Below are positions 2,503-21,970 of a stretch of 24,065 bases of DNA, in pieces. The translations under genes and the position numbers were made by a program. The stretch spans positions 1 to 24,065 of IMG/VR virus record IMGVR_UViG_3300025122_006653; one strand, given 5' to 3'. A model generated the notes under the pieces. That model saw only the letters and a program-made list of their open reading frames with translations, was not told the origin of the DNA and ran no database searches. Every line of letters starts with the position of its first letter. The first letter of the stretch is position 1. This DNA is from a virus.

Positions 2503-2512
2503 TGGTGGTAAA

Positions 2513-3427
2513 TTGAAAGTAATGATAACAGGCGGCTTGGGACATATTGGATCCTATCTTATTAAAAAGCTACCAGAAGATTTTAATATAGTTGTTGTAG
2601 ACAACCTTCTGACTCAAAGATTTTGTTCACTTTTTAATAGAGAAAGAAAGATAACATTTATAGATGAAGATATAGAAAATATAAAAGTTAGTCATCTTAA
2701 AGATATAGACGCCGTTATTCATCTTGCAGCTATAACCAACTCTGTTGAAAGTTTTAAAAATAAGAATGAGATGGAAGATGTAAACATCACAAAAACAGAA
2801 AAATTTATCAATACATGTAAAAATGCTAAAGTTCCAAGATTAATATTTCCTTCATCTGCCAGTGTTTATGGGATCGATTCTAGCTATGTCTATGAAGACA
2901 ATGATAGATTTATAAATCCGCAAAGCCCATATGCAGAAGCAAAAATAAATGTTGAGAATACAATTAAAAAATCACTGGGAAAAGATACGAAATTTATAAT
3001 ACTGAGGTTTGGAACAATATTTGGTGTCAGCCAGGGAATGAGATTTCACACAGCAATCAACAAGTTTTGTTATCAAGTCGCAACAAACAAGCCTCTAACG
3101 ATATGGAAGCAGAATTATAATCATACAAGGCCATACCTGGGAATAGATGACGCCGTTAGAAGTATGATATTTTTCTTAAATAAGAAAGATAATGTCTGGA
3201 ATGAAACATATAATGTTTTAACTTCAAATTATTCTCTGCATGATATAATTGAAATGATCATCAGCATTGATAATTCTGTATCAATTAAGCTCATCGATAC
3301 ACCTTTAATCAATCAGTATTCGTACAAGGTATCTGATGCAAAAATTAAAAATATCGGATTCACAACAAAAGATAGCATGATTAAGAGCATCAAGGAGACT
3401 CTTTTGCTTCTTGGGCATAGTATTTGA
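2513..3427 (+). CDS. NAD-dependent epimerase/dehydratase, extended SDR family
   Basis: This is a sugar-nucleotide epimerase or dehydratase of about 304 residues. The N-terminal Rossmann motif GGLGHIG is at residues 7-13, followed by VVVDN at 28-31, where the Asp binds the NAD ribose. SSASVYG at 114-120 and Tyr140-x3-Lys144 form the Ser/Tyr/Lys active site. The length fits GalE/WbpP-like or dTDP-glucose-type enzymes, but I cannot tell which sugar it uses. I chose the TTG at 2513, which gives MKVMITGG and sits about 5 bases after a GGTGG sequence. ATG 2522 is an alternative, and a TTG at 2492 would add seven residues overlapping the upstream gene. It sits between two glycosyltransferase-like genes. 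Confidence 0.8.
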   Translation: MKVMITGGLGHIGSYLIKKLPEDFNIVVVDNLLTQRFCSLFNRERKITFIDEDIENIKVSHLKDIDAVIHLAAITNSVESFKNKNEMEDVNITKTEKFINTCKNAKVPRLIFPSSASVYGIDSSYVYEDNDRFINPQSPYAEAKINVENTIKKSLGKDTKFIILRFGTIFGVSQGMRFHTAINKFCYQVATNKPLTIWKQNYNHTRPYLGIDDAVRSMIFFLNKKDNVWNETYNVLTSNYSLHDIIEMIISIDNSVSIKLIDTPLINQYSYKVSDAKIKNIGFTTKDSMIKSIKETLLLLGHSI

Positions 3428-3434
3428 GAAAGAT

Positions 3435-4271
3435 ATGAATATAATATCTGATAAAATTATGGTCGGGTGGCTATCTTATGTAAATAAAGATAACATAGAT
3501 AGGCGGCATGATATCTTTGAAACAAGCATAGAAAGTTTAATAAATTTAAAAGATCAGCCCACATATATTGTAAATTTTGATAATAACTCTTCTACAGAAA
3601 TAAAAGATAGAATTTTAAATTCTAATATATTTGATAAATGCATTCACTTTAAAGATAATTTTCTTGATATATCTGTTCTTTTAGGTGTCCCATATCTCGC
3701 CAATAAGATGGGCTTTAAGTATTGCATGTATATGTACGATGATTTCACTATTTTTAATAATGATTTTGTGAATGATACAGTATCGTTTTTGAATAACAAC
3801 GAGGATGTTCACTGTGTAAGAGTAACAGAATATTCCTATTCAAAGATGAATGAATATGATTCTAGAATTATTCCAAAGAATAAAAACCCAGATTCTATTA
3901 GACACTATAACACAGTTACAGGAAATAAGCTTTCATGGTCTGATCCAATACATGTCGGAAAAAGTGTTTTCTATAAAAATAATTGGCACTATACATCTAG
4001 ACCAACTGTGTGGAGGACAGATGTACTTCTTTCCATTTTTGAAAATATAGATGAGATCCCAGTCATGCAACCATTTGAAGGGTATGCTTGTAAAGAGCTT
4101 CAAAATATACCCCTTGTTACAGGAGTGTTAGATTTTGGTGCAATGAATACATTCAAGCAAAGTGAGAGAATGATAACTAAAAAGCAAATTGGAAAAGGCA
4201 AACCTGCTAGATCTATTAGCTCAAAGATAAGCAAAGACTTATTTATTAAACTCTTGATGGAATTGACGTAA
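3435..4271 (+). CDS. Putative GT-A-like glycosyltransferase
   Basis: This 278-residue protein has the look of a small GT-A transferase. An N-terminal strand (KIMVGWLSYV) is followed by helix-strand alternation. Residues 97-107 (CMYMYDDFTIF) form a hydrophobic strand ending in a DD pair that could bind metal and nucleotide sugar. A C-terminal part (RPTVWRTDVL near 189-198, EGYACKEL at 215-222) could hold the acceptor side. It lacks a textbook W-G-x-D block, so the call is tentative. The ATG at 3435 lies 7 bases after the stop of the upstream SDR gene and has GAGAAAG just before it. A TTG at 3411 in frame is less convincing. Confidence 0.45.
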   Translation: MNIISDKIMVGWLSYVNKDNIDRRHDIFETSIESLINLKDQPTYIVNFDNNSSTEIKDRILNSNIFDKCIHFKDNFLDISVLLGVPYLANKMGFKYCMYMYDDFTIFNNDFVNDTVSFLNNNEDVHCVRVTEYSYSKMNEYDSRIIPKNKNPDSIRHYNTVTGNKLSWSDPIHVGKSVFYKNNWHYTSRPTVWRTDVLLSIFENIDEIPVMQPFEGYACKELQNIPLVTGVLDFGAMNTFKQSERMITKKQIGKGKPARSISSKISKDLFIKLLMELT

Positions 4272-4307
4272 AATTATCTGAAAGTAATTCCAGAAAATGA
4301 GAGATAA

Positions 4308-5042
4308 ATGAAAGGAATAATTCTTGCAGGCGGAACTGGATCAAGGCTTAATCCGCTTACAAAGGCCACAAATAAACACCTGCTTCCCGTAGGGGGAGTT
4401 CCGATGATATACCACCCGCTTAAAAGATTAATAAAGTCTAAAATAACAGACATCATGATTGTTACCGGTACAGAACACATGGGAGATATGATAACTACAC
4501 TAGGAAGTGGTAGAGAGTTTGGGTGTGAAATAACCTATAGGGTCCAGGACATGCCTGACGGTATTGCTGGAGCGCTTCTTTTATGTGAATCATTTATTGG
4601 TGATGATTTATTTGTAACGATTCTTGGGGATAATATTTTTGAAAATAGCTTTTCTAGATATGTGGAAAAGTTTAAAAAAATTCAAAGTAGTAGCGGATTT
4701 AAAAGTATGCTACTTCTTAAAGAGGTGCAGAATCCTGAAAGATTTGGGGTGGCAACTGTTAGAGGCGGAAAGATAGTGAAGATAGTTGAAAAGCCAGAGA
4801 ATCCAGAATCAAATCTTTGTGTCACCGGGGCATACTTTTATGATAAAAATGTATTCAAATTTATTAAAAATCTTAGTCCTTCTATGAGAAATGAATTAGA
4901 AATAACAGATGTAAATAATCAATATATCAAGCTAGATTCATGCTATCATGATGTTTTAGACAGCTGGTGGACAGATGCCGGAACACACGCATCTTATAAT
5001 CACGCAAATTTATTTTTTATCGATGGTGAAAAAAATCTATGA
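4308..5042 (+). CDS. rmlA: Glucose-1-phosphate thymidylyltransferase (RmlA-like, short form)
   Basis: It joins dTTP and glucose-1-phosphate to give dTDP-glucose, the first step toward dTDP-deoxysugars. The nucleotidyltransferase signature is at residues 8-18 (GGTGSRLNPLT), followed by KHLLPV at 23-28. TYRVQD is at 76-81 and GDNIF at 107-111, with a catalytic metal Asp. RFGVA is at 145-149, EKP at 161-163 and TGAYFYD at 173-179. At 244 residues it matches the short RmlA type (about 245 residues) rather than the 290-residue enterobacterial form with its C-terminal allosteric extension. GAGAG precedes the ATG by a few bases. The stop overlaps the start of the RmlD-like gene by 4 bases (ATGA), so the two are coupled. 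Confidence 0.9.
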   Translation: MKGIILAGGTGSRLNPLTKATNKHLLPVGGVPMIYHPLKRLIKSKITDIMIVTGTEHMGDMITTLGSGREFGCEITYRVQDMPDGIAGALLLCESFIGDDLFVTILGDNIFENSFSRYVEKFKKIQSSSGFKSMLLLKEVQNPERFGVATVRGGKIVKIVEKPENPESNLCVTGAYFYDKNVFKFIKNLSPSMRNELEITDVNNQYIKLDSCYHDVLDSWWTDAGTHASYNHANLFFIDGEKNL

Positions 5043-5866
5043 AAAAATTAGTCTTTGGAGGCGGAAAGGTCTCAGTTGGATTTTCTAGGTTTAGTAGCTC
5101 ATATACAGCTATTAAAAGAAGTGAATGTGATATATCAAATATTGATAATGTTAGAAGCATCGTAGCTGGGCATAGGCCAGACGTGATAGTTAATGCTGCA
5201 GCAATAACAAATCTAGAAAGATGTGAAAGTAATAAATACGACGCGTATCTATCTAATACTTTGGGAGCTTTGAATCTTTTAAAGGTGTGCTCAGATTTTT
5301 CAATAAAGTTTGCTCATGTTAGTAGCGGTTGTCTTTTTGATGGAAATAGCTCTGTATTTACTGAGACTTCATCGCCAGATCCAAAGGTGTGGTATACAAG
5401 AACAAAAGCGTGGACAGATGATATTATATCATCATTTGGTTATGAAAACTATATCATTCTCAGGCCTAGACAGATGATATCTTCATTTTCACATCCTACT
5501 AATATGATTACAAAATTTCTCAATATGGAGTCAATATTAGCAATAGACGAGCCAAATTCACTGACCTGTGTCGAGGATTTTTGTGAAATGCTAGAGCACC
5601 TTATAAAATATGAACATTGTGGAATTTTTAATTGTTGCAACTCTGGTCATATCACGCCATACGATATCGCATGCAGAATTAGAGACAAGCTCAAAAATAG
5701 CTTTCATGTAGAGAAAATAGAATATAAAGAATTCCTAAAAACAATTCCTAATAAAAGAGTGAATACACTCCTGTCTATAGAAAAATTAAAGTCCACAGGC
5801 TATAATCCTAGATCTGCATCTGAAGCTCTCACCTGGTGTCTCGAGGAGTATAAGAGTTATGAATAG
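5039..5866 (+). CDS. rmlD: dTDP-4-dehydro-6-deoxysugar reductase (RmlD-like)
   Basis: This is a 275-residue SDR reductase. RmlD family marks are DIS at 31-33, RPDVIVNAAAITNLERCE at 46-63, VSSGCLFDG at 94-102 and Tyr119-x3-Lys123. RmlD reduces the 4-keto group of a dTDP-deoxysugar using NAD(P)H. The N-terminal nucleotide-binding loop is unusual: it reads GGGKVSVGF instead of the usual G-x-x-G-x-L-G. The RmlA-RmlD-RmlB order is compact, with a 4-base overlap upstream and an 8-base overlap downstream. Because no RmlC-type epimerase is present in the window, the stereochemistry of its product is open; it could act on the unepimerised 4-keto-6-deoxyglucose. Assignment to the RmlD-like family is firm; the exact substrate is not. 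Confidence 0.75.
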   Translation: MKKLVFGGGKVSVGFSRFSSSYTAIKRSECDISNIDNVRSIVAGHRPDVIVNAAAITNLERCESNKYDAYLSNTLGALNLLKVCSDFSIKFAHVSSGCLFDGNSSVFTETSSPDPKVWYTRTKAWTDDIISSFGYENYIILRPRQMISSFSHPTNMITKFLNMESILAIDEPNSLTCVEDFCEMLEHLIKYEHCGIFNCCNSGHITPYDIACRIRDKLKNSFHVEKIEYKEFLKTIPNKRVNTLLSIEKLKSTGYNPRSASEALTWCLEEYKSYE

Positions 5867-6806
5867 TAATGCAGTATTGTTAACAGGGTGTGCTGGCTTC
5901 ATAGGAAGTCACGCAGCAGAAGAATTTTTAAAACATGGATATGATGTAGTTGGAGTAGATAATCTCACGTATGCTGGAAAAATGAAAAATATGAATGAAT
6001 TTATAGATCACTCTAGGTTTATATTTTATAAAGAAGATATCTGTAATTTCTCTTCAATTTTAGAAATTTGTCAAAGACATAATATTGGCTGGATAATAAA
6101 CTTTGCTGCAGAAACTCATGTAGACAATTCTATAGATGACTGCAATAGCTTTATTCACTCTAATGTTACAGGGGTGATGTCGCTACTTAATGTTTGTAAA
6201 AAATTAAAGTGTAAAATTTTTCATATTTCAACAGATGAGGTCTATGGATCGACTAAGTCTGGATCATTTTCTGAAAATGATATCTTAGATCCTAAAAATC
6301 CATACTCAGCGACAAAAGCAGCAGCTGAGCATCTTGTAAGATCATATGCTAACACATATGATATAAAATATCTTATTGTAAGACCATCTAATAATTTTGG
6401 GCCCAGGCAACATGATGAAAAATTTCTTCCTACTATTATAAGATCACTTGCAAATAATGATAAAGTTCCTATTTACGGTGATGGAAAAAATATTAGAGAC
6501 TGGTTGTTTGTTAAGGACAATGTTAGAGCAATAAGGTATATTATTGAGAACTCTCCTGAGTGTGAAATTTATAATATTACATCTAAAAATGAAATGACAA
6601 ATTTACAAATTTGTAGGATAGTTTGTAATATCCTTAATAAGGAAGTTGATAAAAGTATAGAATTTATCAATGATAGACTGGGACATGACTTTAGATATTC
6701 TATTAAGAATGCTAAGCTTAAAAGTATAGGATTTTCTAATTTTTCATCATTTAAAAGGTCTATGAATGAGACTGTTAAAGGTCTATGCGGAGAAAAAAAT
6801 GAGTGA
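5859..6806 (+). CDS. rmlB: dTDP-glucose 4,6-dehydratase (RmlB-like)
   Basis: It converts dTDP-glucose to dTDP-4-keto-6-deoxyglucose. The Rossmann motif GCAGFIG is at residues 10-16 and VDNLTYAG at 33-40. HISTDEVYG at 122-130 supplies the catalytic Thr-Asp-Glu typical of 4,6-dehydratases, and Tyr149-x3-Lys153 lies in PYSATKAAAEHL. RPSNNFGPRQHDEKFLP begins at residue 175 and GDGKNIRDWLFV at 207. At 315 residues it is slightly shorter than the usual 340-360. It follows the RmlA- and RmlD-like genes and overlaps both neighbours by 8 bases, so the three are almost certainly co-translated. This is the most confident of the sugar-pathway calls. Confidence 0.92.
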   Translation: MNSNAVLLTGCAGFIGSHAAEEFLKHGYDVVGVDNLTYAGKMKNMNEFIDHSRFIFYKEDICNFSSILEICQRHNIGWIINFAAETHVDNSIDDCNSFIHSNVTGVMSLLNVCKKLKCKIFHISTDEVYGSTKSGSFSENDILDPKNPYSATKAAAEHLVRSYANTYDIKYLIVRPSNNFGPRQHDEKFLPTIIRSLANNDKVPIYGDGKNIRDWLFVKDNVRAIRYIIENSPECEIYNITSKNEMTNLQICRIVCNILNKEVDKSIEFINDRLGHDFRYSIKNAKLKSIGFSNFSSFKRSMNETVKGLCGEKNE

Positions 6807-7641
6807 TATGAAAATAGGCGTTGTGGGCCAGGGATTTGTGGGATCAGCGATTAGAGAGGGTCTTTGTAATTTTTATAGCGTATTAACCTACGATATAGAT
6901 CCTTCAAAATGCAATAGCACACATGAAAAGGTATGTGATGAATCAGATATAATATTTGTTTGTATTCCAACACCTATGAAAAAATCTGGTGAATGTGATA
7001 CAAGGCTTCTTGAAAAAGTTGTTGCGAAGATTCAAAATAGATGTAGAAAGTCTAACAATATGCCCACACTGGTAATAAAGTCTACAATACCTCCGGGAAC
7101 AACTGAAAAGATTTATAATAGAGGGTGGCTAGATATATGCTTCAGCCCGGAATTTCTCACAGAAGCAAATTCATTTGAAGATTTTAAAAATCAATCTAGA
7201 ATAATAATAGGAGGAGCTGGAGCAAAAAAGGTCAAGCAAATGTTTAGAAAAGTATTCCCAAGAATACCGATAGTTGTAACTAAGTCAGAGACAGCTGAGA
7301 TGGTTAAATATTTTACCAATTGCTTTCTTGCAACGAAGGTAACATTTGCTAATGAAATGTATGATATATGTCAATCATCGAATATTGATTATGATAAAGT
7401 ATGTGAATATTCTCTTCATGACTCTAGAATAGGAAGAAGTCACTTAGCTGTGCCAGGCCCAGACGGAGATAGAGGGTTTGGTGGACATTGCTTTCCTAAA
7501 GACCTAGAGGCAATGGTTTATTTTTCAGAAATAAATCATTATGAACCATCTCTTTTAAAAAAGGTTCTTGATAAAAACGATAAGATTAGAGAAAATAGAG
7601 ATTGGGAAGCCATGAAAGGTCGCGCAGTTAGTGAAGATTAA
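6799..7641 (+). CDS. Short UDP-glucose/GDP-mannose dehydrogenase-like protein
   Basis: This 280-residue protein carries the conserved blocks of the UDP-glucose dehydrogenase family, which oxidises an NDP-hexose twice to a uronic acid. VGQGFVG at 9-15 is the NAD loop, followed by VCIPTP at 54-59, KSTIPPGTTEK at 94-104 and SPEFLTEANSFEDF at 116-129. AEMVKYFTNCFLA is at 166-178 and NE at 185-186. The catalytic-cysteine motif is GGHCFPKD at 228-235 (Cys231). It ends about 45 residues after the Cys, so the C-terminal nucleotide-binding domain of full-length enzymes (about 390-450 residues) is missing. The ATG at 6799 has GGAG 6 bases upstream and overlaps the RmlB-like gene by 8 bases. It could make a uronic-acid sugar or act as a short variant dehydrogenase. 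Confidence 0.78.
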   Translation: MSDMKIGVVGQGFVGSAIREGLCNFYSVLTYDIDPSKCNSTHEKVCDESDIIFVCIPTPMKKSGECDTRLLEKVVAKIQNRCRKSNNMPTLVIKSTIPPGTTEKIYNRGWLDICFSPEFLTEANSFEDFKNQSRIIIGGAGAKKVKQMFRKVFPRIPIVVTKSETAEMVKYFTNCFLATKVTFANEMYDICQSSNIDYDKVCEYSLHDSRIGRSHLAVPGPDGDRGFGGHCFPKDLEAMVYFSEINHYEPSLLKKVLDKNDKIRENRDWEAMKGRAVSED

Positions 7642-7685: not shown

Positions 7686-8537
7686 ATGAAAAATGAAAGT
7701 AAAGTAAATTCGCTACCTATTCTTCCAACTGGAAAATCTCATATTTCATTTTCTGAGGTTAAGTGTTGGAAGGAGTGCTCATGGAGGCACAAATTAGTTC
7801 ACATTGACAAGGTTGATGTATTTGAACCATCACCCTATTTAGATTTCGGAACTGCAGTTCATGAGGGATGTGAGTCATATTTGAAGACTAAGACTATCGA
7901 CGAGAAGGTATTGCTAGATGGCGTTAGAGATGCCTGGAAAGATAACGGATTTGATGATCCTGAATGGGTAAAGAAGCAGCCTGGGTGGTATAAATACAAG
8001 CCAGTAGAGGAGTGGTGTACCTGGGCTAAAAACATGTGGAGTGAAATTCCAGATTTTTTAGATGAAACATTTCCAGGCTGGGAGTGCTTCGATGCAGAGG
8101 AACGGCTTTATGAGTCCATCGAAGGAAAGGACATCAACTTTAAGGGTTTTATTGACGCTGTTATAAAAGTGCCAGATAAGAATGGAAGCTACAAGTACTG
8201 GATAATTGACTGGAAGACGGCCCAGTCCTACGGCTGGCGTAGACAGAAAAAACAAGATATTTTAATGACAGCACAACTAATTCTCTATAAGCATTTTTGG
8301 TCTAGGAAGCACTCTGTTGACTTGAAGGACATTAGATGTGGTTTTATATTATTGAAGCGCGGGGGTAAACCAGGCAGGGTCTGTGAGCTCGTAACAGTAT
8401 CTGTTGGGCCCAAATCACTAGCTAGAGCAAAAAAGATAGTCAATAATATGATAGCATCTGTTAGAAGAAGAATGTTTTTAAAAAATAGAGATTCGTGTAC
8501 GTATTGTCAATTTAAAGAAACACACCACTGTACATGA
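7686..8537 (+). CDS. PD-(D/E)XK nuclease, Cas4/RecB-like, probable Fe-S protein
   Basis: This 283-residue protein is likely a DNA exonuclease of the Cas4/RecB-nuclease group. GTAVHEG at 55-61 supplies the conserved His59. GFIDAVI at 154-160 gives the first Asp, and IIDWKT at 173-178 gives the D-x-K core (Asp175, Lys177). QLILYKHFW from Gln197 fits the following QhxxY motif. Four cysteines in the Cas4-like arrangement, Cys31 near the N-terminus and Cys271, Cys274 and Cys282 near the C-terminus, could hold an iron-sulfur cluster. Cys27 is also present. No Shine-Dalgarno precedes the ATG, and no alternative in-frame Met follows before about residue 117. Related phage nucleases act in recombination or host DNA breakdown. 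No CRISPR array is nearby, so a CRISPR role is not supported. Confidence 0.82.
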   Translation: MKNESKVNSLPILPTGKSHISFSEVKCWKECSWRHKLVHIDKVDVFEPSPYLDFGTAVHEGCESYLKTKTIDEKVLLDGVRDAWKDNGFDDPEWVKKQPGWYKYKPVEEWCTWAKNMWSEIPDFLDETFPGWECFDAEERLYESIEGKDINFKGFIDAVIKVPDKNGSYKYWIIDWKTAQSYGWRRQKKQDILMTAQLILYKHFWSRKHSVDLKDIRCGFILLKRGGKPGRVCELVTVSVGPKSLARAKKIVNNMIASVRRRMFLKNRDSCTYCQFKETHHCT

Positions 8538-8554
8538 TTAACTCTATCTATTAG

Positions 8555-8571
8555 ATGAGATACAATCTCAT
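8555..8571 (+). promoter_or_regulatory. Perfect 7-bp inverted repeat before a glycosyltransferase gene, possible promoter overlap
   Basis: ATGAGAT and ATCTCAT flank a 3-base ACA loop, immediately upstream of the GGAG ribosome site (8573-8576) of the gene at 8586. Overlapping it, TACAAT (8561-8566) with TTAACT (8538-8543) 17 bases upstream looks like a weak sigma70 promoter. In RNA the hairpin would sit beside the ribosome site and could affect translation; in DNA it could be an operator. There is no following T-tract, so a rho-independent terminator is unlikely. Confidence 0.3.
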
Positions 8572-8585
8572 TGGAGATATATGGT

Positions 8586-9833
8586 ATGCCAGAGAAAAAG
8601 AAGGTTATAGTATTATCAGATCATGCACTTTCAACCTCTGGGGTTGGAACTCAAACTAGGCACCTCATCCAGGGCCTTCTCGAAAAGAAGAAGTGGTCCT
8701 TTAGACAGTTTGGTGCAGCACTAAAGCATGTTGATTATAATACTGTAGTTGTTAGTGATGATTTTATCATCAAACCAATTGATGGATTTGGTGATAGAGA
8801 GCTCATAAGAGTCACACTAGCAACAGAAAAACCTGACGTGATATTGATTTTTACAGATCCAAGATTTTTTATATGGCTTTTTGAGATGGAGGATGAGATT
8901 CATCAGATGTGTCCTATAGTATGGTGGCATGTTTGGGATAATTATCCTTATCCAAAATATAATAGTGTGCTATATGAATCTACAGATATAATTAATTGTC
9001 ACTCATTTTTAACATATGAGATGATTAAGGAAAAATTTCCAAAAAAGACTAACTTTATACCTCACGCTATTCCTGAAGATATTTACCATCCCCTTCCTGA
9101 AGATGATATAAAACGATGGAAAAAACAAATTTTAGGGGAAGATAAGGGCGATCACTTTGTTGCAATATGGACAAATAGAAACGCAAAAAGAAAGAGACCT
9201 AATGACCTTTTAGAATCTTGGAAGATGTTTCTTGACTATCTTGAGAGCACGCATGGGCATAGAAAAGGAATACTCATAATGCACACGGACCCATTCGACG
9301 GTGAGGGCCCAAATTTGACTGTGACGGCTGAAATGTTGAACATTCATGAGAATGTATTTTTCTCATCTGATAGAATAGAATTTGATAAAATGAACGTTCT
9401 CTACAATATCTCAGACTGCTGTATAAACATTAGCTATGCAGAAGGCTTTGGACTTCCCACATTAGAATGTATGCAGGCGGGAGTTCCAATTATAGCTGTT
9501 AAGACAGGCGGTCTCACAAGACAGGTTGTAGATCATAGAGACGGTAGTGAAAATGGTGTAGCTTTAGATATAGAGGTTAGATCTCTTGTAGGATCACAGC
9601 AGGTACCTTACATTTATGAGGATTATGTTTCCTGTGAGTCAATTTCAAATGCTATTATTAAGCTATATGAGATGGATGAAAAGGATACAAATAAGCTCAA
9701 AAAGAAAGTAAGAGAGTATGCATTAAGTGAGTTTTCATATCAAAAAACAATAGATGACTGGGATCATCATTTAGAAGATATTTCTAAAACGTGGAGAGAA
9801 AAATATGAGCGGTGGAACTGCGTCACCATTTAA
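8586..9833 (+). CDS. Glycosyltransferase family 4-like (GT-B)
   Basis: This 415-residue GT-B enzyme probably transfers a sugar from a nucleotide donor. The N-terminal domain carries SDHALSTSGVGTQTR (residues 11-25) with the Gly-rich donor-side loop, and WWHVWDNYPYPKYN (residues 113-126) may be acceptor side. The C-terminal domain has NRNAKRKRP (197-205) and EGFGLPTLECMQAGVPIIAV (286-305), the standard GT4 E-x7-E region in which the two Glu bind the sugar-nucleotide. The chosen start is ATG 8586, with GGAG 9 bases upstream; an in-frame TTG at 8571 is possible but would overlap the hairpin. The 3' end overlaps the next glycosyltransferase gene by 29 bases, suggesting translational coupling. The acceptor is unknown. 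Confidence 0.88.
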   Translation: MPEKKKVIVLSDHALSTSGVGTQTRHLIQGLLEKKKWSFRQFGAALKHVDYNTVVVSDDFIIKPIDGFGDRELIRVTLATEKPDVILIFTDPRFFIWLFEMEDEIHQMCPIVWWHVWDNYPYPKYNSVLYESTDIINCHSFLTYEMIKEKFPKKTNFIPHAIPEDIYHPLPEDDIKRWKKQILGEDKGDHFVAIWTNRNAKRKRPNDLLESWKMFLDYLESTHGHRKGILIMHTDPFDGEGPNLTVTAEMLNIHENVFFSSDRIEFDKMNVLYNISDCCINISYAEGFGLPTLECMQAGVPIIAVKTGGLTRQVVDHRDGSENGVALDIEVRSLVGSQQVPYIYEDYVSCESISNAIIKLYEMDEKDTNKLKKKVREYALSEFSYQKTIDDWDHHLEDISKTWREKYERWNCVTI

Positions 9834-11013
9834 CTTTAATCCAAATTTAGGTAAAAAAAATGTCGTAATTAGAGCGCCACTTCTTTCTATAAGTGGGTAC
9901 GGTGTTCATTCTAGACAGGTCTTTAAGTGGGCCCAAAAGAGAAATTTTAACCTATATTCTCAGATCGTTCCGTGGGGAAATACCACGTGGATGGTAAACC
10001 CGGACATGGAAGGTGGGCTTGTTGGAGAAATCATGTCTACATCTTCAGAAAAAAGAGATAAATACGACATATCTTTTCAAGTTCAACTACCTGATGAGTG
10101 GGATCCGAATCTCGCTGAGTTTAATATAGGCGTCTCAGCAGTTGTTGAAACAGATAGGTGTAATCCGGAATGGATAGATAGGTGTAATTTGATGAATTGC
10201 GTCGTTGTTCCGTCTAATCATATAAGAGATGTGCTTTTAAGAACAGGAGAAATTAAGGTGCCGCTTTATGTTATTCCAGAGTGGTATTTTGAAGAAATAG
10301 ATACAGGATCATCAGAAAGCATTGATGTAGACCTATGTACAGATTTTAATTTTTTACTAGTCGGTCAGTTCACAGGTGGTGATCCGTGGAATGATAGAAA
10401 AAATATATATTTCACAATAAAGTGGTTTTGTGAGGTATTCAAAGATGACCCAAACGTTGGACTAATACTAAAGGCTAATCACGGTAGAGGAACTAGAATT
10501 GACAGAGAGATAACACGCAACAAGGTTCGTCAAATTCTCGGAGAGGTCAGAAAATCAGAGTTTCCAAAAGTTCACCTTATACACGGAAATTTAACACCAG
10601 GAGAAATTATAAGCCTCTATAAAAATTCTAATGTTAGATGCTTACTAAGTTTAACAAGAGGCGAGGGTTTTGGCCTGCCATTGCTAGAGGCGTCAGCGTG
10701 TGAATTGCCAGTAATAGCCACTAATTGGTCTGCTCATTTAGATTTTTTAAATTTAGGAAAATTTATACCAGTTCAGTATAAGCTAGAAGAGATTCCTTCA
10801 AGCAGGGTGGATAATAGGATTTTTCTTTCTGGAATGAAATGGGCCCAACCTTTGGAAGATGACTTTAAAAAGAAAATATTAAAGTTTAGAAATAAGTACA
10901 CTATACCTGATCAGTGGGCCTCTGAGCTGTCTAAAAAGGTTAGAAATGAATTTTGTGACAGATCTATAATGCTTAAGTATGATAAGCTATTATCTGAAAT
11001 GCTTGGGATTTAA
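9805..11013 (+). CDS. Second glycosyltransferase family 4-like (GT-B)
   Basis: This 402-residue glycosyltransferase is related in layout to its upstream neighbour. The N-terminal APLLSISGYGVHSRQVF (residues 24-40) holds the Gly loop. VVVPSNHIRDVL (133-144) and VGQFTGGDPWNDRKN (186-200) match the inter-domain region seen in GT4 enzymes. The signature RGEGFGLPLLEASACELPVIA is at 285-305. The ATG at 9805 lies inside the end of the previous gene (29-base overlap) with GGAG about 8 bases upstream. The pair may act one after the other on a shared glycan. Donor and acceptor are not readable from sequence, though the nearby dTDP- and UDP-sugar genes are obvious donor sources. Confidence 0.85.
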   Translation: MSGGTASPFNFNPNLGKKNVVIRAPLLSISGYGVHSRQVFKWAQKRNFNLYSQIVPWGNTTWMVNPDMEGGLVGEIMSTSSEKRDKYDISFQVQLPDEWDPNLAEFNIGVSAVVETDRCNPEWIDRCNLMNCVVVPSNHIRDVLLRTGEIKVPLYVIPEWYFEEIDTGSSESIDVDLCTDFNFLLVGQFTGGDPWNDRKNIYFTIKWFCEVFKDDPNVGLILKANHGRGTRIDREITRNKVRQILGEVRKSEFPKVHLIHGNLTPGEIISLYKNSNVRCLLSLTRGEGFGLPLLEASACELPVIATNWSAHLDFLNLGKFIPVQYKLEEIPSSRVDNRIFLSGMKWAQPLEDDFKKKILKFRNKYTIPDQWASELSKKVRNEFCDRSIMLKYDKLLSEMLGI

Positions 11014-11328
11014 ATGAGCTTTGTTTCTATTTTTTTGATATCTTCGTGTGTGATACTAGCTGTTTTATTATCCATATCTGTATATTTTAATATAAAACAT
11101 GGAATTTTAATTTTAAAAATTATGGATCAAATTGATATATCACTTGATATCATAGATCAAAAATATGCTAGTGTAAGTAAGATATTAGAAATTCCTATTT
11201 TTTTTGATTCTGTTGAAATAAGACAGGTGATATCTGACATAGAGTCTGTTAGATATTCTTTTTTAGACGTCGCAAGAATTCTTACAGATGAGGATGAAGA
11301 CCAAGATCAAGAAGGAACAGATGCCTAA
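11014..11328 (+). CDS. Small one-pass membrane protein, function unknown
   Basis: This is a 104-residue protein. Residues 3-25 are strongly hydrophobic (FVSIFLISSCVILAVLLSISVYF), giving one transmembrane helix close to the N-terminus. A mostly helical segment with a regular heptad-like pattern (IDISLDIIDQKYASVSKIL) follows, and the C-terminal tail is very acidic (DEDEDQDQEGTDA). It starts at the base after the upstream stop and overlaps the sigma-factor gene by 8 bases. I do not recognise the family; the close link to the sigma gene is the main clue. The overlap means the acidic tail is encoded over the sigma gene's ribosome site. Confidence 0.6.
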   Translation: MSFVSIFLISSCVILAVLLSISVYFNIKHGILILKIMDQIDISLDIIDQKYASVSKILEIPIFFDSVEIRQVISDIESVRYSFLDVARILTDEDEDQDQEGTDA

Positions 11329-12058
11329 AAAAGTTAGAAGAAAGATTAGAAGACCTAAAAGGTCTACAAAGCCGTATTTTGACAAAAATACACACGATGC
11401 AATTGTAAAATTTCAAAATACAGAAGAGAGAGATGAAAAAGAAAAGATTTATGTAAAAGAAATTCTTCCTGCATTTAATAAGCTGGCAGAAAATTTAATA
11501 TTCATTCATGGATTTGCTAAACCACACGGGCTGGGAGCCTATGAGGGATTAAAGAGTGACTGTGTTACATTTTTGTATGAAACTCTAAGAAAGTTTGATC
11601 CTTCTCGAGGAACAAAAGCATTTTCTTATTTTAATGTTGTTGCTAAAAATTGGCTAATCATTCAAAGTAAGAAAAAAATTAAGAGTAACCGAAGGCACGT
11701 AAGTATAAGTGATAGTGGTGCGCTATCAGTTTCAGATCTATCTTTAATTGAAAACTTTAAGGTAGAACCATCACAAGATGATGCCATGATAAAAAAGGAG
11801 GCAATATCAAATTTATTTGATTTAATGGTAGAGATTAGATCAAGACTAAAAAGTGAAAATGAGCTAGCGTGTATGGACGCGATACTTACAATTTTTTCGA
11901 GAATAGATGACTTAGACCTACTTAATAAGAGAGCTGTATTTGTCTATATGAGAAACTTGTCAAACCTAAATCCCAAACAGCTATCTGTAGCGATGTCAGT
12001 TATAAGAAAGCATTATAAAGAATTAGTTAAGACAGGTGAATTTGATATTTTCTTTTAG
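11321..12058 (+). CDS. 55: T4 gp55-like late-transcription sigma factor
   Basis: This 245-residue protein looks like the phage sigma factor for late genes, which directs host RNA polymerase to late promoters. Residues 54-114 form a sigma region-2-like block; KLAENLIFIHGF, LKSDCVTFLYETLRKFDPSRGTKAF and YFNVVAKNWLI are the recognisable parts. The final six residues, EFDIFF (240-245), resemble the sliding-clamp-binding tail of T4 gp55 (a hydrophobic/acidic peptide), so it probably also needs the phage clamp. A basic N-terminus (KKVRRKIRRPKR, residues 3-14) is notable. The start chosen is ATG 11321 with AAGGA 4 bases upstream; an in-frame ATG at 11288 is deep inside the neighbour gene. This is consistent with the late baseplate genes downstream. 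Confidence 0.85.
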   Translation: MPKKVRRKIRRPKRSTKPYFDKNTHDAIVKFQNTEERDEKEKIYVKEILPAFNKLAENLIFIHGFAKPHGLGAYEGLKSDCVTFLYETLRKFDPSRGTKAFSYFNVVAKNWLIIQSKKKIKSNRRHVSISDSGALSVSDLSLIENFKVEPSQDDAMIKKEAISNLFDLMVEIRSRLKSENELACMDAILTIFSRIDDLDLLNKRAVFVYMRNLSNLNPKQLSVAMSVIRKHYKELVKTGEFDIFF

Positions 12059-14494: not shown

Positions 14495-14977
14495 ATGGCC
14501 GAACTTAGCTTTAAAAGTGTGGGTATCAAGAATACAGATTCTTCACTTAGAAGACATGTTGATACGCACCCAATAGGGATCAAGACACCGCTCCGTCTTG
14601 GTAATGAGAGATCTGGTTTATTTGATATGCATTTCTCAATTGAAGATCAGATAACTGATAATCTTAGAAATCTAATTTTAACTAACTATGGTGAGAGGCT
14701 CTGTAATTATAACTACGGAGCTAATTTAAGAGAGCTTACAACAGAGCTGTCATCAAAGGATGATTTCGATGCTGAGGCTATGCTTAGAATTAAAAGCGCA
14801 GTTAAGTCTCACCTTCCGTTTGTTGAACTAGATACGTTTGTATCAACTTTTGATAGAAGTGTGCTCAATTCAGGCGTCGAGGCTGTGTCTAAGATACAGC
14901 TCATGGTAAAATATAGTATACCAAAACTTAGGGTGACAGATCGAGCAATTAATGTATTTTTATATGTAATAGGATAA
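14495..14977 (+). CDS. 25: gp25-like baseplate wedge protein
   Basis: This 160-residue protein matches the gp25/GpW family of contractile-tail baseplates, which forms the wedge core with gp6. Recognisable parts are PIGIKTPL (26-33), GLFDMHFSIEDQITDNLRNLI (41-61) and GERLCNYNYGANLREL (66-81). The family core (SIEDQI, GER) is well kept. T4 gp25 is about 130 residues, so this protein is a little longer. It starts after AGGAG and is followed 4 bases later by the gp6 gene, in the order expected in T4-like phages. Confidence 0.92.
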   Translation: MAELSFKSVGIKNTDSSLRRHVDTHPIGIKTPLRLGNERSGLFDMHFSIEDQITDNLRNLILTNYGERLCNYNYGANLRELTTELSSKDDFDAEAMLRIKSAVKSHLPFVELDTFVSTFDRSVLNSGVEAVSKIQLMVKYSIPKLRVTDRAINVFLYVIG

Positions 14978-14981
14978 CTCC

Positions 14982-16817
14982 ATGGCTTCAAAAATTAAAA
15001 ATGTACGACCAAGATCATATCTCAATAGAGATTTTGATTCCTTTAGGGCTGAACTTGTAGAATACGCAAGAACATATTTTAGTGATAAGATAACAGATTT
15101 TTCTGAGAATGGGATGGGTGGACTCTTTGTAGAGATGGCTTCATATGTGGGTGACACAATGTCGTATTATTTAGATCACCAGTTCAATGAGCTAGACATC
15201 CAAACTGCCGTAGAGCCTGGAAATATTGAACGTCTTGTTAGAATGTCTGGGGTCAAAATACAGGGCGCGGCACCCGCAACTGCTACTGTAGATTTTTATA
15301 TAGAGGTTGATTCGATTCTTAAAAATACATCCTACATTCCAGATGTAACAAAGATGCCAGTGGTAAAGATGGGTACGTTAATTTCCTCAAAAAACGGCGT
15401 AATGTTTGAGCTTCTTGAGGATTTAAATTACACAAAAACAGATTCTGAGGGAAATGTTATAGCAGAATATGAGACTAGATCAACAGACTCTAGTGGAAAT
15501 CCATTAACATTTTCTGTTAAGCTAACTGGTGTATGCCAGTCTGGAATAACTTCGTCACAATCCTTTGTTATTCCAGATAGTCTTCATCCATTTAGAACGA
15601 TAACACTAAGCTCACCAAACGTAGTTGAGATAATACACGTATCAGATTCAAATGGAAACACATATTATCAGGTTGACGCTCTGACACAGGATGTAGTGTA
15701 TAAGAGAGTTGTTAATATAGACGAAGATAATGATCTTGTTCCTGAAAATATTGAGCTTCTTCCAGCACCATACAGGTTTATATCGACAACAAGTAGACAG
15801 ACTGGAATGACATCTTTAAGGTTCGGAGGAGGAAGCGCTGATACATTTGATAATGATATTATTCCTGATCCAAGCGAGGTAGCATTGCCTCTATATGGAA
15901 GTAAGATGACATTTTCAAGATTTACAATAGATCCTAATGCCCTATTAGAGACGAGAACACTCGGAATATCTCCTAGAAATACGACCATAACTGTTAGATA
16001 TAGAGCGGGAGGTGGGCTTTCTCACAATGTCTCAGCCAATCAGATACAAACAGTTTCAACACTTTTAACTGAATTTTCATCGACAACATCGGCATCAGTT
16101 GTAACTTCAGTTCGTTCATCTATGGAGGTTGATAATCCCAACCCAGCATCGGGCGGCGAGGCAGCAATGACATTAAATGAGCTTAGGGCTACTGCTTTAG
16201 CATTTAGAAATTCACAGTCTAGAATAGTAACAAAATCTGATCTCATTGCTAGAATATATACTATGCCGTCTAATTTTGGAAGAGTTTTTAGAATTGGAAT
16301 AAGATCAAATCCCAATAATCCCCTAGCCACAGAGCTCTCAATATTAAGTAGAAGTTCTGATGGTAGACTTATAATTTCTCCTGACTCTCTCAAGGAAAAT
16401 TTAAGACTATATGTAAATGAATTTAGGTTAATATCTGACGCAATAGACATAATTGATGCACAGGTATTTAATATGAAAATAGAATATGGTGTTGTTGTTG
16501 ATACGGTATCTAATAAAAATTTAACAATACAGAGCATTAATTCATCAATCAAGGAGTATATGTCAATTGAAAATTTCCAAATTGATCAACCAATAATGAC
16601 GTCAGATCTCATTAATTTAATTATCAATGCATCTGGTGTGATATCTCTTGTAGATTTTTCAGTTTCTAATATGGTTGGAGAAATCGATGGAAGAGAATAT
16701 AGTACTAGCTCATTTTCTGTAGCATCAAGCACAGATAGAGGTATGATTTATGCTCCTTCTGGTGGAATTTTTGAAGTAAAGTATCCTGATGATGATATTG
16801 TTGGAAGCGCGAGGTAA
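14982..16817 (+). CDS. 6: gp6-like baseplate wedge protein
   Basis: This 611-residue protein is a gp6/GpJ-family baseplate wedge subunit that makes the inner ring of the baseplate. The N-terminus has the family pattern YLNRDFDSFRAELVEYA (13-29) and ITDFSENGMGGLFVEMASYVGD (37-58), with SYYLDHQFNELDIQTAV immediately after. The C-terminal half contains VTKSDLIARIYTMP beginning near residue 415, the conserved TKxD turn of GpJ proteins. T4 gp6 is about 660 residues, so the length fits. AGGAT precedes the ATG and the upstream gp25 stop is 4 bases before it. Downstream is a DNRLRE-like structural gene. Confidence 0.92.
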   Translation: MASKIKNVRPRSYLNRDFDSFRAELVEYARTYFSDKITDFSENGMGGLFVEMASYVGDTMSYYLDHQFNELDIQTAVEPGNIERLVRMSGVKIQGAAPATATVDFYIEVDSILKNTSYIPDVTKMPVVKMGTLISSKNGVMFELLEDLNYTKTDSEGNVIAEYETRSTDSSGNPLTFSVKLTGVCQSGITSSQSFVIPDSLHPFRTITLSSPNVVEIIHVSDSNGNTYYQVDALTQDVVYKRVVNIDEDNDLVPENIELLPAPYRFISTTSRQTGMTSLRFGGGSADTFDNDIIPDPSEVALPLYGSKMTFSRFTIDPNALLETRTLGISPRNTTITVRYRAGGGLSHNVSANQIQTVSTLLTEFSSTTSASVVTSVRSSMEVDNPNPASGGEAAMTLNELRATALAFRNSQSRIVTKSDLIARIYTMPSNFGRVFRIGIRSNPNNPLATELSILSRSSDGRLIISPDSLKENLRLYVNEFRLISDAIDIIDAQVFNMKIEYGVVVDTVSNKNLTIQSINSSIKEYMSIENFQIDQPIMTSDLINLIINASGVISLVDFSVSNMVGEIDGREYSTSSFSVASSTDRGMIYAPSGGIFEVKYPDDDIVGSAR

Positions 16818-16825
16818 AAGATATA

Positions 16826-18361
16826 ATGTATAGAATTTTAACTGCCAGTAAAGATTCATATATCACTAATAAAATTATTGATAATAGTTTTAGAGCAACA
16901 GATGCAAATGTTGGAAAAGCAGCAACGCTAGACCTTTTTAAACTATACGCAGAATCAACGTCTGGATCTAATACATCTCCCACGGAGCTATCTAGGGCTC
17001 TTGTTAAGTTTGATTTAAATGCATTAAGAAGGATAACGGGTTCATTTCTAGATATTGGACATTCATCATTTAAATGCACACTCAAGCTCATAGACGTGTA
17101 TGGAGGTCAGACATGTCCATCTAATTTTAAATTAATCGTATTTCCGCTTTCAAAATCATTTGATGAAGGAATAGGAAGAGATATAGTAAGATTTTCAGAC
17201 CTAGACAGCTGTAACTGGTTAACCTCTTCAGTTTCAAATTCGACAACAGCAGAAACGTGGTCTTTGGGAGGTGCGAATAAACATGGACTTTTGGGATCTA
17301 CAAATATAGACATAATTGCTAGTGGAAACCTAAAAGATGGAAATGGAGTTTCACAAATATGGAAAGAACAGATATTTTCAACCGGAGAAGAGAATCTATC
17401 TATTGATGTAACAACTATTATTTCTGCAACTTTAAAAAATATAATTCCAGATTATGGACTAAGAATATCATATACTGGGTCAGAAGAAACAGATAGTGTA
17501 ACGAGGTTTGTTAAGAGGTTTGGATCAGCAAATTCATCTAATCCTAATCTTAGGCCCCAATTAATCGTAGAATATAACGAAGCCATACAAGATCATCACA
17601 GGTCATTTTATTTTAATCTAAGCGGTTCATTATTTTTAAATAATTTTCACAGAGGGTTTTCAGCAAATATGTTGTCCGGATCCTCAGCTACACAAATTAC
17701 TGGATCCAGCTCTATTATTTTAGAAATAAAATCCGGAAGCACGTCTAGGGGAACTTATTTTTCAAAAATAATAACAGGTTCTCAGCACAAAGTAGGCACA
17801 AACTTTATTACTGGAGTGTACTCTGCGTCATTTGCTGTATCGCAATGGGCATCTGGAACAATTCACAAGGAGATCAAAAATGCAGGATCAGCGACGTTTA
17901 AAGAGATATGGAGCTCTCTTGATAGATCTGTTGGTTTTTTGACATCTAGTTTTGTGGTCAAGAGTGTTCAAAGGTCATCATTTTCTAATCAGCCTAAACG
18001 TCTTCTAGCAAGTATTACAAATTTACAGAATGAATATTCAAAAAACAGTAAGATAAAAATAAGGGTTTTTGTTGAGGATGTAGATAGACCAGTCGTATAT
18101 AAGAAGGTTCCTTTTGTAAATGATGGAGAGATATTTACTTCAATGTATTATAGAATTCTTGATTCTATGACAGGAGATGTAGTTATTCCATATGGAACAG
18201 ACGGAAGCACACTATTATCTACAGATTCTGACGGGATGTATTTTGAATTCTATGTAGATTCTTTACACAAGGGTAGAGCCTATAGATTTGAATTTCTAGT
18301 AAAGGATATGGGAGTTGATCAATATTTTGACAATGTTGCATCATCGTTTAGTGTGATTTAG
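16826..18361 (+). CDS. DNRLRE-like beta-rich structural protein of the baseplate or tail tip
   Basis: This is a 511-residue protein. Residues 1-250 resemble the DNRLRE/carbohydrate-binding-like beta sandwich: an N-terminal DSYITNK (10-16), RALVKFDLNAL (57-67), and a closing FGSANSSNPNLRPQLIVEY (232-250), which matches the family's terminal strand. The middle (260-330) is packed with SGS/TGS tripeptides and the C-terminal part (about 400-511) looks like an Ig-like beta domain. It sits after gp6, where T4-like phages usually encode further wedge proteins, so it is probably part of the tail tip and may contact a sugar or protein ligand. The family call comes from the start and end motifs; the exact role is inferred. 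Confidence 0.55.
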   Translation: MYRILTASKDSYITNKIIDNSFRATDANVGKAATLDLFKLYAESTSGSNTSPTELSRALVKFDLNALRRITGSFLDIGHSSFKCTLKLIDVYGGQTCPSNFKLIVFPLSKSFDEGIGRDIVRFSDLDSCNWLTSSVSNSTTAETWSLGGANKHGLLGSTNIDIIASGNLKDGNGVSQIWKEQIFSTGEENLSIDVTTIISATLKNIIPDYGLRISYTGSEETDSVTRFVKRFGSANSSNPNLRPQLIVEYNEAIQDHHRSFYFNLSGSLFLNNFHRGFSANMLSGSSATQITGSSSIILEIKSGSTSRGTYFSKIITGSQHKVGTNFITGVYSASFAVSQWASGTIHKEIKNAGSATFKEIWSSLDRSVGFLTSSFVVKSVQRSSFSNQPKRLLASITNLQNEYSKNSKIKIRVFVEDVDRPVVYKKVPFVNDGEIFTSMYYRILDSMTGDVVIPYGTDGSTLLSTDSDGMYFEFYVDSLHKGRAYRFEFLVKDMGVDQYFDNVASSFSVI

Positions 18362-21300
18362 ATGGCAAGGAATATTCACAAACACACTAGACCAAAATTA
18401 TTTAGTCCAGCCGTAACTCGGCTAGAGACAAAGCTTGCGATAAGTGATCCTATCACATTGTCAAAGCTATCTGATACAAATGTCGAGAGCACATCATCAT
18501 TTAGATATGATCAACCAGGAACAGGGTTAAAATCGACGCAGGAGTTGCCAATCGATTGGTCATCTTTTGAAAATCATACATTTTTTAATTCAGCACAATC
18601 TAAAGTAAATGTCGCATTCAATAGAATTGTTAATCACTATCCTTTTCAAGGAACAGAGAAAGAAATAGAAGCGTTTGAAGATTCTCTTACAGGATATGAA
18701 AAATATATCTTAGATGTATTTCCAAAGAATAACGGATATCTATTTTTCTCAGGAACATCAAAAAGTGAGAATCCAGAAGGTGGATTTTTAGAAAAGCTTG
18801 GAACATACATCTCAGTACTAGATAGTGCCGGAAGCCAATTTCCTCTATTTTCAAAAAATAGAACTGGCGAGTCAGTGATAAATCCTGGAATAAAATCATT
18901 GAGTTTTGAAATGCAGTTATTTATTCCTGATCAAGTAAATGATAATCAAATCATATGTCAGAGGAGAGTTGCGAATAATCAAGCAATAACTCTTGCGCTG
19001 TCTAAGTCACAGTCATCTAGAAACTGTAAGCTAATTTTTTCCGTTAATTCCGGATCAGCAAAACTTTTTACAAGTTCATCAATTGAAAAAGGTACGTTTA
19101 ATCATGTTTGTGCAACTTTTGATAGAAGATCAGGGGTAAATGGTCTTAAGCTATATTTAAGTGAATCTCTTGTATCTTCTTCTTCAACAACATACGATAT
19201 GGGAAATTTATCTACAAATAAGAGTAGGTTTATAATAGGATCAGGGTCTTCGTTTAGTGTAACAAAAGGTATTCTCCCACCCATGGGATCCGGAGACGTT
19301 GAAATATTTACACCAGCTCAGACTCTTTCAGGAGCTTTAGATGAGTTTAGGATTTTTCATGACATAAGGACGCTTGATCAACAAAGACAGTATGGAAATA
19401 AGTCAATTTATGCATCTAATGATTTAAAGTTATATTTTAAATTTAATGAGCCGACAGGATCATTTAATATCGATGATGCTTCTCTTGACAGTTCTGGAAA
19501 TTCTCTTCATACTAGAATTTCAAACTTTACATATGGACTAAGAAATACGGGATCAATTTCTAATCCAATGACTGCAGAAGATATCAATAGATGTCCAATA
19601 TTATTTCCATCCTATAAGACAGTTAAAAGTTTAAATGTTCATCTTTTGGCGTCTGCAAGTAATTATGATGATAGAAATCCCAATCTAATAACAAGACTTA
19701 TTCCAATTCATTATCTCCTAGAGGGAGAATGGGAACAGGGATTATCATCACTAGATGGCCAGATGAATGATGCATACACAGCTACGTCAATTCCAGGATC
19801 TGGCAAGATTGGAACAGCACAATATTTAACAGCATTTTTGCTAGTGTGGGCAAAGTTTTTTGATGAATTAAAACTATTCATTGATTATTTTTCTACTGTT
19901 ACGGGAATAGATTACGATTCTTCTAATTCTGCACCAGATAAATTTCTTCCATTTATTGCAAGCTATTATGGATTCACGCTGCCTTCAATTTTTTCTAATA
20001 CAGACCCACTCCAGTTCATAAGAGGAGAAAATATAAAAGACTCTTATTCTAAGTCTGCTCATTCATTATCATATGTTCAAAATCAGGTGTGGAGAAGAAT
20101 TCTTATAAATTTGAATGAAATAATTCAATCTAAGGGAACTGTCTATAGTATTAAAGCGTTAATAAGATCTGCCGGAATAGACCCGGATGGAATTCTTACA
20201 ATAAGAGAATATGGCGGACCGACGAAGCGAACACTCAATAACAGCAGACAATCAAGAACCGAGGTAGCCTCAATTTTAACATTTTCTGGTAGTCTCGCTT
20301 CTGTGTCTTCTTCTTTATCTGCACAGGGTTTTGCTAACAATTATCCCCACATTGTGTCTCCATTTTTGTCATCTTCAAGAGTGGAGGTGGGCTATCCACG
20401 AGCTGTGGGATCGTTTGTTAAAAAACAGAATCATTATCCACATGGAATATCTAACAATTCCTCAGATGGTCTTTATACATCTGGATCATGGACATATGAG
20501 GGAATTTATAAATTTAAGATGTTAAGAACTGGATCATATAGTACATTTCAAAGCGTGGCAAGAATTCACTCATCCGGAACTAGTGCACCCTCATCTACTC
20601 ATTCAGTTTTAGCTAATTTAGTAATACATTCAGGATCACAAAATAGCCTTACTTCTAGTGGATCTGATCTGAAGTTGTATATTAGACCATCTATTGGCTC
20701 TACAAGTGAGCCAGTTTTAAAGTTAGCTTTAACAGGGGTTCATATTTTTGATGGAAATCTTTGGAATATTTCATTTGGCAGGAGGAGATCAGATCAACCC
20801 ATTACAAATGCCACAGGATCTTATTTTGAAGGAACAGTTGGAACTTTATCATCATCTTATTTCTTGCGATGTGCTAGATCATCATTTGGAGAGATAAAAG
20901 ATATTTTTTATGAGTCAAAATATTTTAATGAAACAAGCACTGGAAATCAGACAGATAACATGTTTCAAACAATAAATAGTTCCTATAACACATCTGGTGG
21001 ATTTGTTGTAATTGGATCACAAAGCTTAAATACAGCTCCCCAATATTTTTTAAATGATTCATCATTAAATAGCATTCACAGAGAGGTTAAATTTGAAGGT
21101 GACGTCTCACAGATGAGATTTTGGTCAAAAGCATTGACGATCACTGAGTGGAGATCTCATGTTAGAAGTTTTAAATCCCTAGGCGTAGAAGATCCTTTAA
21201 TAAATTTCAATTTTGAGACATACCAGACTGGATCTTTCCAAAAAATCAGATTTGATGTGTCAACAGATCAAAGAATTACAGAGACTGACTCTGATGGAAA

Positions 21301-21970
21301 CATCATGTTGAAAGATTTTTCTCAGAATAATCTTAATATGACAGGATCAGGATTTGAGGTTTCCACAGATGTTATAAAGCCAGAGACATTTTATTATAGT
21401 ATTTTCTCTCCTAGCTTCGATGTAGCTCAGACAGATAATAAGGTCAGGGTGAGGAGCTACCAGAATCCTAAATATCTAAAAGAGAGGGACTATGCCTCTA
21501 CAGCTCCCGTTTATGAGGTTCCTAGAAGTGAAGAACCAGACGATGATACGAGATTCACAGTAGAATATTCATCTGTTAGAGCACTAAATGAAGACATAAT
21601 GAGACTCTTCGGTACATTAGATTTTTTTGATGATGCTCTTGGAAGGCCAAATCTTCTATTTGATGAATTTTATCCCGATCTTGATCAGATGAGAAAGGTA
21701 TACTTTAAGAGATTAACTGGAAAGCTTGATATCCACACTTTCTTTAGTATGTTTAAGTGGTTTGATACAGCACTAGGATCTTTAATAGAGCAGCTAGTTC
21801 CTAAAAAGGCTAAATTTCTTGGAGTAAACTTTGTTGTTGAGTCACATGTATTAGAGCGAAATAGATTTAGATATCTATTTGATGATATTTACTTACTTGC
21901 ACTTGAGAGAAATACTGATAGAGGTAACTTATTTCTTTCTCAAGTTGCGGGAACAATGAAGAAGTTTTAA
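18362..21970 (+). CDS. Mosaic baseplate protein: gpI/gp7-like core with two LamG-type domains
   Basis: This 1202-residue protein begins one base after the previous stop. Residues about 175-345 look like a LamG/concanavalin jelly roll (SLSFEMQLFIP, FNHVCATFDRR, GLKLYLSE, GALDEFRIFHDIRTL). Residues about 485-620 look like a P2-gpI/T4-wedge tail core (FDELKLFIDYF, VWRRILINLNEIIQSKGT, SIKALIRSAGI, IREYGG). A second jelly roll is likely at about 705-1000 (YEGIYKFKML, GDVSQMRFWSKALT). The C-terminus, residues 1141-1170, has LIEQLVPKKAKFLGVNFVVE followed by SHVLERNRFR. By position after gp25 and gp6 it may take the place of gp7. Very rich in SGS/TGS. A plausible receptor or glycan contact point. Confidence 0.65.
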   Translation: MARNIHKHTRPKLFSPAVTRLETKLAISDPITLSKLSDTNVESTSSFRYDQPGTGLKSTQELPIDWSSFENHTFFNSAQSKVNVAFNRIVNHYPFQGTEKEIEAFEDSLTGYEKYILDVFPKNNGYLFFSGTSKSENPEGGFLEKLGTYISVLDSAGSQFPLFSKNRTGESVINPGIKSLSFEMQLFIPDQVNDNQIICQRRVANNQAITLALSKSQSSRNCKLIFSVNSGSAKLFTSSSIEKGTFNHVCATFDRRSGVNGLKLYLSESLVSSSSTTYDMGNLSTNKSRFIIGSGSSFSVTKGILPPMGSGDVEIFTPAQTLSGALDEFRIFHDIRTLDQQRQYGNKSIYASNDLKLYFKFNEPTGSFNIDDASLDSSGNSLHTRISNFTYGLRNTGSISNPMTAEDINRCPILFPSYKTVKSLNVHLLASASNYDDRNPNLITRLIPIHYLLEGEWEQGLSSLDGQMNDAYTATSIPGSGKIGTAQYLTAFLLVWAKFFDELKLFIDYFSTVTGIDYDSSNSAPDKFLPFIASYYGFTLPSIFSNTDPLQFIRGENIKDSYSKSAHSLSYVQNQVWRRILINLNEIIQSKGTVYSIKALIRSAGIDPDGILTIREYGGPTKRTLNNSRQSRTEVASILTFSGSLASVSSSLSAQGFANNYPHIVSPFLSSSRVEVGYPRAVGSFVKKQNHYPHGISNNSSDGLYTSGSWTYEGIYKFKMLRTGSYSTFQSVARIHSSGTSAPSSTHSVLANLVIHSGSQNSLTSSGSDLKLYIRPSIGSTSEPVLKLALTGVHIFDGNLWNISFGRRRSDQPITNATGSYFEGTVGTLSSSYFLRCARSSFGEIKDIFYESKYFNETSTGNQTDNMFQTINSSYNTSGGFVVIGSQSLNTAPQYFLNDSSLNSIHREVKFEGDVSQMRFWSKALTITEWRSHVRSFKSLGVEDPLINFNFETYQTGSFQKIRFDVSTDQRITETDSDGNIMLKDFSQNNLNMTGSGFEVSTDVIKPETFYYSIFSPSFDVAQTDNKVRVRSYQNPKYLKERDYASTAPVYEVPRSEEPDDDTRFTVEYSSVRALNEDIMRLFGTLDFFDDALGRPNLLFDEFYPDLDQMRKVYFKRLTGKLDIHTFFSMFKWFDTALGSLIEQLVPKKAKFLGVNFVVESHVLERNRFRYLFDDIYLLALERNTDRGNLFLSQVAGTMKKF

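Follow-up and report, generated by a model that had tools for sequence, protein, structure and literature searches.

The closest described precedent for a baseplate wedge protein of this kind is Gp119 of Bacillus phage Vp4, a baseplate wedge 3 protein with two carbohydrate-binding modules (CBMs), which decorates cells, unlike Gp177, a homologue that lacks the CBMs (PMC11406892); with it, a cell-binding wedge carrying carbohydrate-binding modules is already published. The gp7-type subunits gp17 of the contractile system XM1 (PMC10457771) and Alg12 of AlgoCIS (PMC8894135) bind tail spikes or fibres. A literature search returned no paper linking LamG (laminin-G) domains with 'baseplate wedge'.

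The protein considered here is encoded on a viral contig of 24,065 bases (IMG/VR record IMGVR_UViG_3300025122_006653), which as a whole is called the window and is a fragment, since its last ORF passes the contig end. A sequence-only reading had called a 1202-residue ORF at 18362-21970, with coordinates and length that proved exact, and had taken its product for a wedge protein with added LamG modules, a proposal for which synteny, profile comparisons and LamG-less homologues speak, in an amended form. We favour, with a probability of roughly 0.55, a wedge subunit in the gpI/gp7 position that carries old LamG appendages, for which docking is the most likely role and glycan adhesion is possible in addition. 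The features are collected in Table 1, where the gene is called wedge-LamG.

Table 1. Features of the window, with coordinates in the 24,065-base contig
Feature	Coordinates	Strand	Basis or remark
NAD-dependent epimerase/dehydratase	2492-3427		sugar-nucleotide cluster
Nucleotidyltransferase, RmlA-like	4308-5042		sugar-nucleotide cluster
RmlD-like	5039-5866		sugar-nucleotide cluster
RmlB/GDP-mannose dehydratase-like	5859-6806		sugar-nucleotide cluster
UDP-glucose/GDP-mannose dehydrogenase	6766-7641		sugar-nucleotide cluster
gp25-like baseplate wedge/sheath initiator	14495-14977	+	Pfam GPW_gp25, E 7e-4, below cut-off
gp6/J-like baseplate wedge	14982-16817	+	phrog_219, E 4e-13; TIGR02243, E 4e-13, below cut-off
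511-aa protein, DNRLRE-like domain (below cut-off)	16826-18361	+	between gp6 and wedge-LamG genes; nearly as conserved as gp6
wedge-LamG gene	18362-21970	+	1202 aa, ATG start
N-terminal helical segment, residues ~57-130, ..DWSSFENHTFFNSA..	18530-18751	+	conserved; also in LamG-less relatives
LamG1, residues ~149-362 (Pfam match 189-337)	18806-19447	+	Pfam, DSSP, Foldseek
gpI-like core, first half, residues 416-625	19607-20236	+	aligns to Immutovirus/Mel-JY01 cores; weak P2 gpI profile match
KGT motif, SKGTVYSIKALIRSAGIDPDGILTIREYGG, residues 590-619	20129-20218	+	gpI-resembling stretch; PF09684 matches of relatives
LamG2, residues ~629-1015, nested in core	20246-21406	+	model beta-sandwich, tandem-LamG matches, motif, weak Pfam
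gpI-like core, second half, residues 1048-1175, with ..IEQLVPKKAKFLGVNFVVESHVLER	21503-21886	+	aligns to C-terminal core part of LamG-less relatives
Downstream variable LamG protein, passes contig end	22878-24065	+	Pfam Laminin_G_3, E 2e-11

The wedge-LamG gene is encoded after the gp25- and gp6/J-like genes, with one 511-aa gene between, and this order, which fits a wedge role, is kept in 80 IMG/VR loci wherever the contig reaches. These loci belong to the best 80 of 283 relatives found among IMG/VR contigs, most of them colinear across nearly the full length of the protein. The named relatives comprise four Immutovirus records, in which the order is gp25-gp6-X-homologue of the wedge-LamG gene, as well as Microcystis phage Mel-JY01 and the jumbo phage LR756508. 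A scan of GTDB genomes added two MAG contigs with relatives (Halobacteriovorax, Rhodospirillales), too weak a basis for naming a host; the Halobacteriovorax contig (PBIO01000013.1, 109 kb), which may be a binned phage, encodes a family member at 44% identity and ORFs of similar size in the same order. Elsewhere in the window there is a sugar-nucleotide gene cluster at 2492-7641, a PD-(D/E)XK nuclease-superfamily protein at 7686-8537 (PDDEXK_1, E 7e-20) and, at 8571-11013, adjoining ORFs of which one is a Glycos_transf_1 glycosyltransferase (9805-11013) and the other glycosyltransferase-like by inspection (8571-9833). A 256-aa protein at 11288-12058, encoded in 46 loci, matches phage late sigma factors weakly (phrog_234, E 0.007).

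Conservation differs along the locus. Among the fetched relatives, median identity to the window reaches 51% in gp6 and 48% in the 511-aa protein, and is 45% in wedge-LamG and 44% in gp25; it is 29% for the gene next after wedge-LamG, and 31% over 46% of the length for the downstream LamG protein (24 loci). Within the wedge-LamG protein itself, mean pairwise identity ranges from 36% in LamG1, the fastest-changing region, through 44% in LamG2 and 47% in the first core half to 54% in the second (1048-1175), the most conserved. Identities in the LamG modules co-vary with those in the core (Mantel r ~0.67, 0 of 2000 permutations). Judged by these comparisons, the gene looks like that of a vertically inherited structural protein.

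An AlphaFold model of the 1202-aa protein, built from 60 sequences (mean pLDDT 78.8, pTM 0.68), helps to sort out the anatomy. Nearly all of the 50 matches listed in a Foldseek search of this model against the PDB are of LamG/pentraxin/ConA type, and in BFVD unannotated virus proteins match it from end to end, the highest TM being 0.68. PHROGs and NCBIfam profiles gave no match anywhere in the protein, and when profiles of the whole family, of LamG2 and of the cores of relatives were run against the PDB, LamG1 was the only region matched. Of the two jelly-roll-like regions described earlier, both stand as LamG-type beta-sandwiches, the second less firmly, and this second one, which had been placed after the core, is instead inserted inside it. 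Similarly, the C-terminal block is conserved as claimed, at 54% mean pairwise identity, and is not a separate block: it is the second half of a split core, because the pieces joined without LamG2 align to the uninterrupted core of the Immutovirus relatives. Specifically, the core joined with LamG2 cut out reaches E 2.7e-18 against the LamG-free Immutovirus core and E 1.9e-29 against the Mel-JY01 group; with both LamG modules excised, the alignment runs from the N-terminal segment to the core end (E 4e-17 and 2e-32, respectively). The N-terminal segment (~57-130) is also recovered by hhalign, with P 2.5e-6 for the Mel-JY01 group and P 3e-4 for Immutovirus.

The likeness of this core to P2 gpI is local. 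Searched over 12 whole phage records, PF09684 (Tail_P2_I) gave eight matches, one per record, every one of them in the gene of the wedge-LamG family at the KGT motif and every one sub-threshold (8-15 bits, where the cut-off is 20.6); no other gene in these 12 records emerged as a gpI candidate, and in the window protein PF09684 has no match at E up to 1. Profile comparison of the core with P2 gpI, represented by 10 gpI sequences, gave P 0.002-0.003, above chance around the KGT motif. The score was reached by none of 150 column shuffles, and by 10 and 1 of 150 block shuffles; since shuffles of 15-column blocks can reach it, the signal is mostly the KGT block. T4 gp7 has no significant sequence or profile match to the core, in a comparison where the control pair gpI-gp7 fails too. 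T4 gp7 and P2 gpI, when compared by profiles built from single sequences, gave signals too weak to use, and a fold search with an AlphaFold model of the Immutovirus core, which gave no match, was discarded on account of the poor model (pLDDT 39). The gpI-type core of the sequence-only reading is therefore retained as a weak local profile match at the KGT motif, with all Pfam matches below cut-off, and of the two comparisons it had called for, that with gpI gave this weak match and that with gp7 no significant one. Because the gpI evidence is weak and centred on KGT, we label the protein 'gpI/gp7-position with gpI-like motif' and stop short of calling its gpI membership proven.

A weak and local gpI match might also be a chance resemblance around the KGT motif in a protein that is a tail fibre or adhesin and no wedge subunit at all, and LamG domains are indeed common among predicted viral proteins (many appear among the BFVD matches). 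This explanation is very unlikely: a tail fibre would sit poorly with the conserved position after gp25 and gp6, with a gene conserved like gp6, with a LamG-free homologue at the same syntenic position and with whole records that contain no other gpI match.

The two LamG modules are not equally firm. LamG1 lies above the curated Pfam cut-off (Laminin_G_3, residues 189-337, E 4.9e-10, the sole Pfam LamG match in the protein) and has LamG/pentraxin-type fold matches in the PDB by Foldseek. LamG2 is recognized as a LamG module less firmly, mainly through the predicted fold, in which a second large beta-sandwich occupies ~629-1015. In the window protein Pfam has no LamG match at this site, and only 2 of 60 relatives have one (best E 2.6e-4). 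A PDB profile search with LamG2 also gave no match, so that some other, non-LamG beta-sandwich could be considered, compatible with any functional reading. We regard this as unlikely, given that tandem-LamG PDB chains (neurexin L2-L3, laminin LG4-5) align with the model over ~800 columns, a figure that counts alignment columns and not query ranges; such alignments are consistent with two predicted LamG modules. The diagnostic motif IGSxS...F/SGxxxxxRFW...L aligns LamG1 with LamG2 (P 0.0044). In addition, an insert of the Mel-JY01 group at the same site as LamG2 matches the LamG1 profile of the window family with P 1.9e-9 and the LamG2 profile with P 8e-4, and one motif is common to the inserts of the window family (FxGxVxxxRFWSKxLxxxEWxxH), Mel-JY01 (SGSIFELRYWSNELQESSFDNH) and LR756508 (FNGDIDNVKLWKDPLPREQFDEH). 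As the Mel-JY01 insert matches the LamG1 of the window family better than its LamG2, the LamG-type inserts may have separate origins.

In a gp6 tree the window family forms one clade and Immutovirus another, with the Mel-JY01 group beside the latter and LR756508 outside both. LR756508 appears to carry a LamG-type insert with the same FNGDIDNVKLW...FDEH motif, and LamG2 is missing from the Immutovirus relatives according to the core alignment; LamG1 was not found by hhalign in the aligned Immutovirus or Mel-JY01 relatives. These distributions suggest an ancestral LamG2 that Immutovirus has lost, and a LamG1 added in the window's clade. We infer this history rather than read it off the tree, because the tree has no more than a midpoint root, with LR756508 on a long branch; moreover, with the 80 best of 283 relatives kept, clade members without LamG1 could have escaped. 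The two domains had been described as acquired, which agrees with LamG1, missing in both outgroups, and disagrees with LamG2, which looks ancestral in the midpoint-rooted gp6 tree.

In the favoured reading, the split helical core (416-625 and 1048-1175) would most likely join two gp6-like copies in a (gp6)2-gp7 heterotrimer, which would lie beneath the gp25-like sheath initiator. LamG1, which precedes the core, and LamG2, which is inserted into it as a loop, would project to the baseplate rim, where they would most likely offer a conserved structural or docking surface to the variable adhesins encoded just downstream, and direct glycan adhesion may be an extra role. The docking proposal is based on XM1 and AlgoCIS, where spikes or fibres are attached to the gp7-type subunit. 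The slower change of the wedge-LamG protein would suit a conserved glycan ligand too, which counts against the docking argument.

LamG and pentraxin folds often bind glycans. The same wedge could thus owe to LamG1 and LamG2 a genuine adhesion to host glycans, the baseplate itself binding the cell as the sequence-only reading had proposed, and as in the precedent of Vp4 Gp119, where a baseplate wedge with carbohydrate-binding modules decorates cells (PMC11406892). That LamG1 changes faster than the rest of the protein (36% mean pairwise identity) would also suit an adhesin. Adhesion as the main role is a serious contender, though less probable than docking, as nothing points to swapped modules (identities in LamG follow those in the core), the LamG1 positions conserved at >=90% look mostly fold-related by inspection (SGxxDEFR, LKLYF), and separate variable proteins, one of them with LamG, are encoded downstream. 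It is improbable that in this widespread phage family the wedge itself is the primary contact sensor, with glycan binding by a gpI/gp7-type subunit coupled directly to sheath triggering and no fibre between.

Compared with known systems, the wedge-LamG protein resembles Vp4 Gp119 in being a wedge with carbohydrate-binding-type domains that are missing from homologues, cell binding being demonstrated for Gp119. The modules of Gp119 are of the CBM16/xylanase type and differ between similar phages, whereas those of the window family are LamG, with putative glycan binding, and are present throughout a broad family. P2 gpI shares the position after J/gp6 and the region of the KGT motif; it has only 176 aa, lacks LamG and matches weakly in sequence. 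T4 gp7 has the position after gp6 in common, with other accessory domains and a non-significant sequence match. Among closer relatives, the 1265-aa hypothetical protein of Flavobacterium phage immuto (Immutovirus, MW353176) has the homologous core and N-terminal segment in the same order after gp25 and gp6, lacks both LamG1 and LamG2 and ends in a C-terminal extension of another kind; Immutovirus has Flavobacterium sp. LMO8 as host. In Microcystis phage Mel-JY01 (WWT39511.1, 1336 aa) and, as it appears, in LR756508, the LamG2 site of the homologous core is occupied by a LamG-type insert, and these proteins differ in the missing LamG1, the N-terminal part and a C-terminal extension. The window belongs to a large group of uncultured phages with contractile tails (283 IMG/VR relatives), and the core of their wedge protein is covered by no Pfam, PHROG or NCBIfam model. 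Since homologues with both LamG modules, with one and with none occur naturally and can be compared, the role of lectin-like modules in the baseplate is testable, in the way that Gp119 was set against Gp177 in Vp4.
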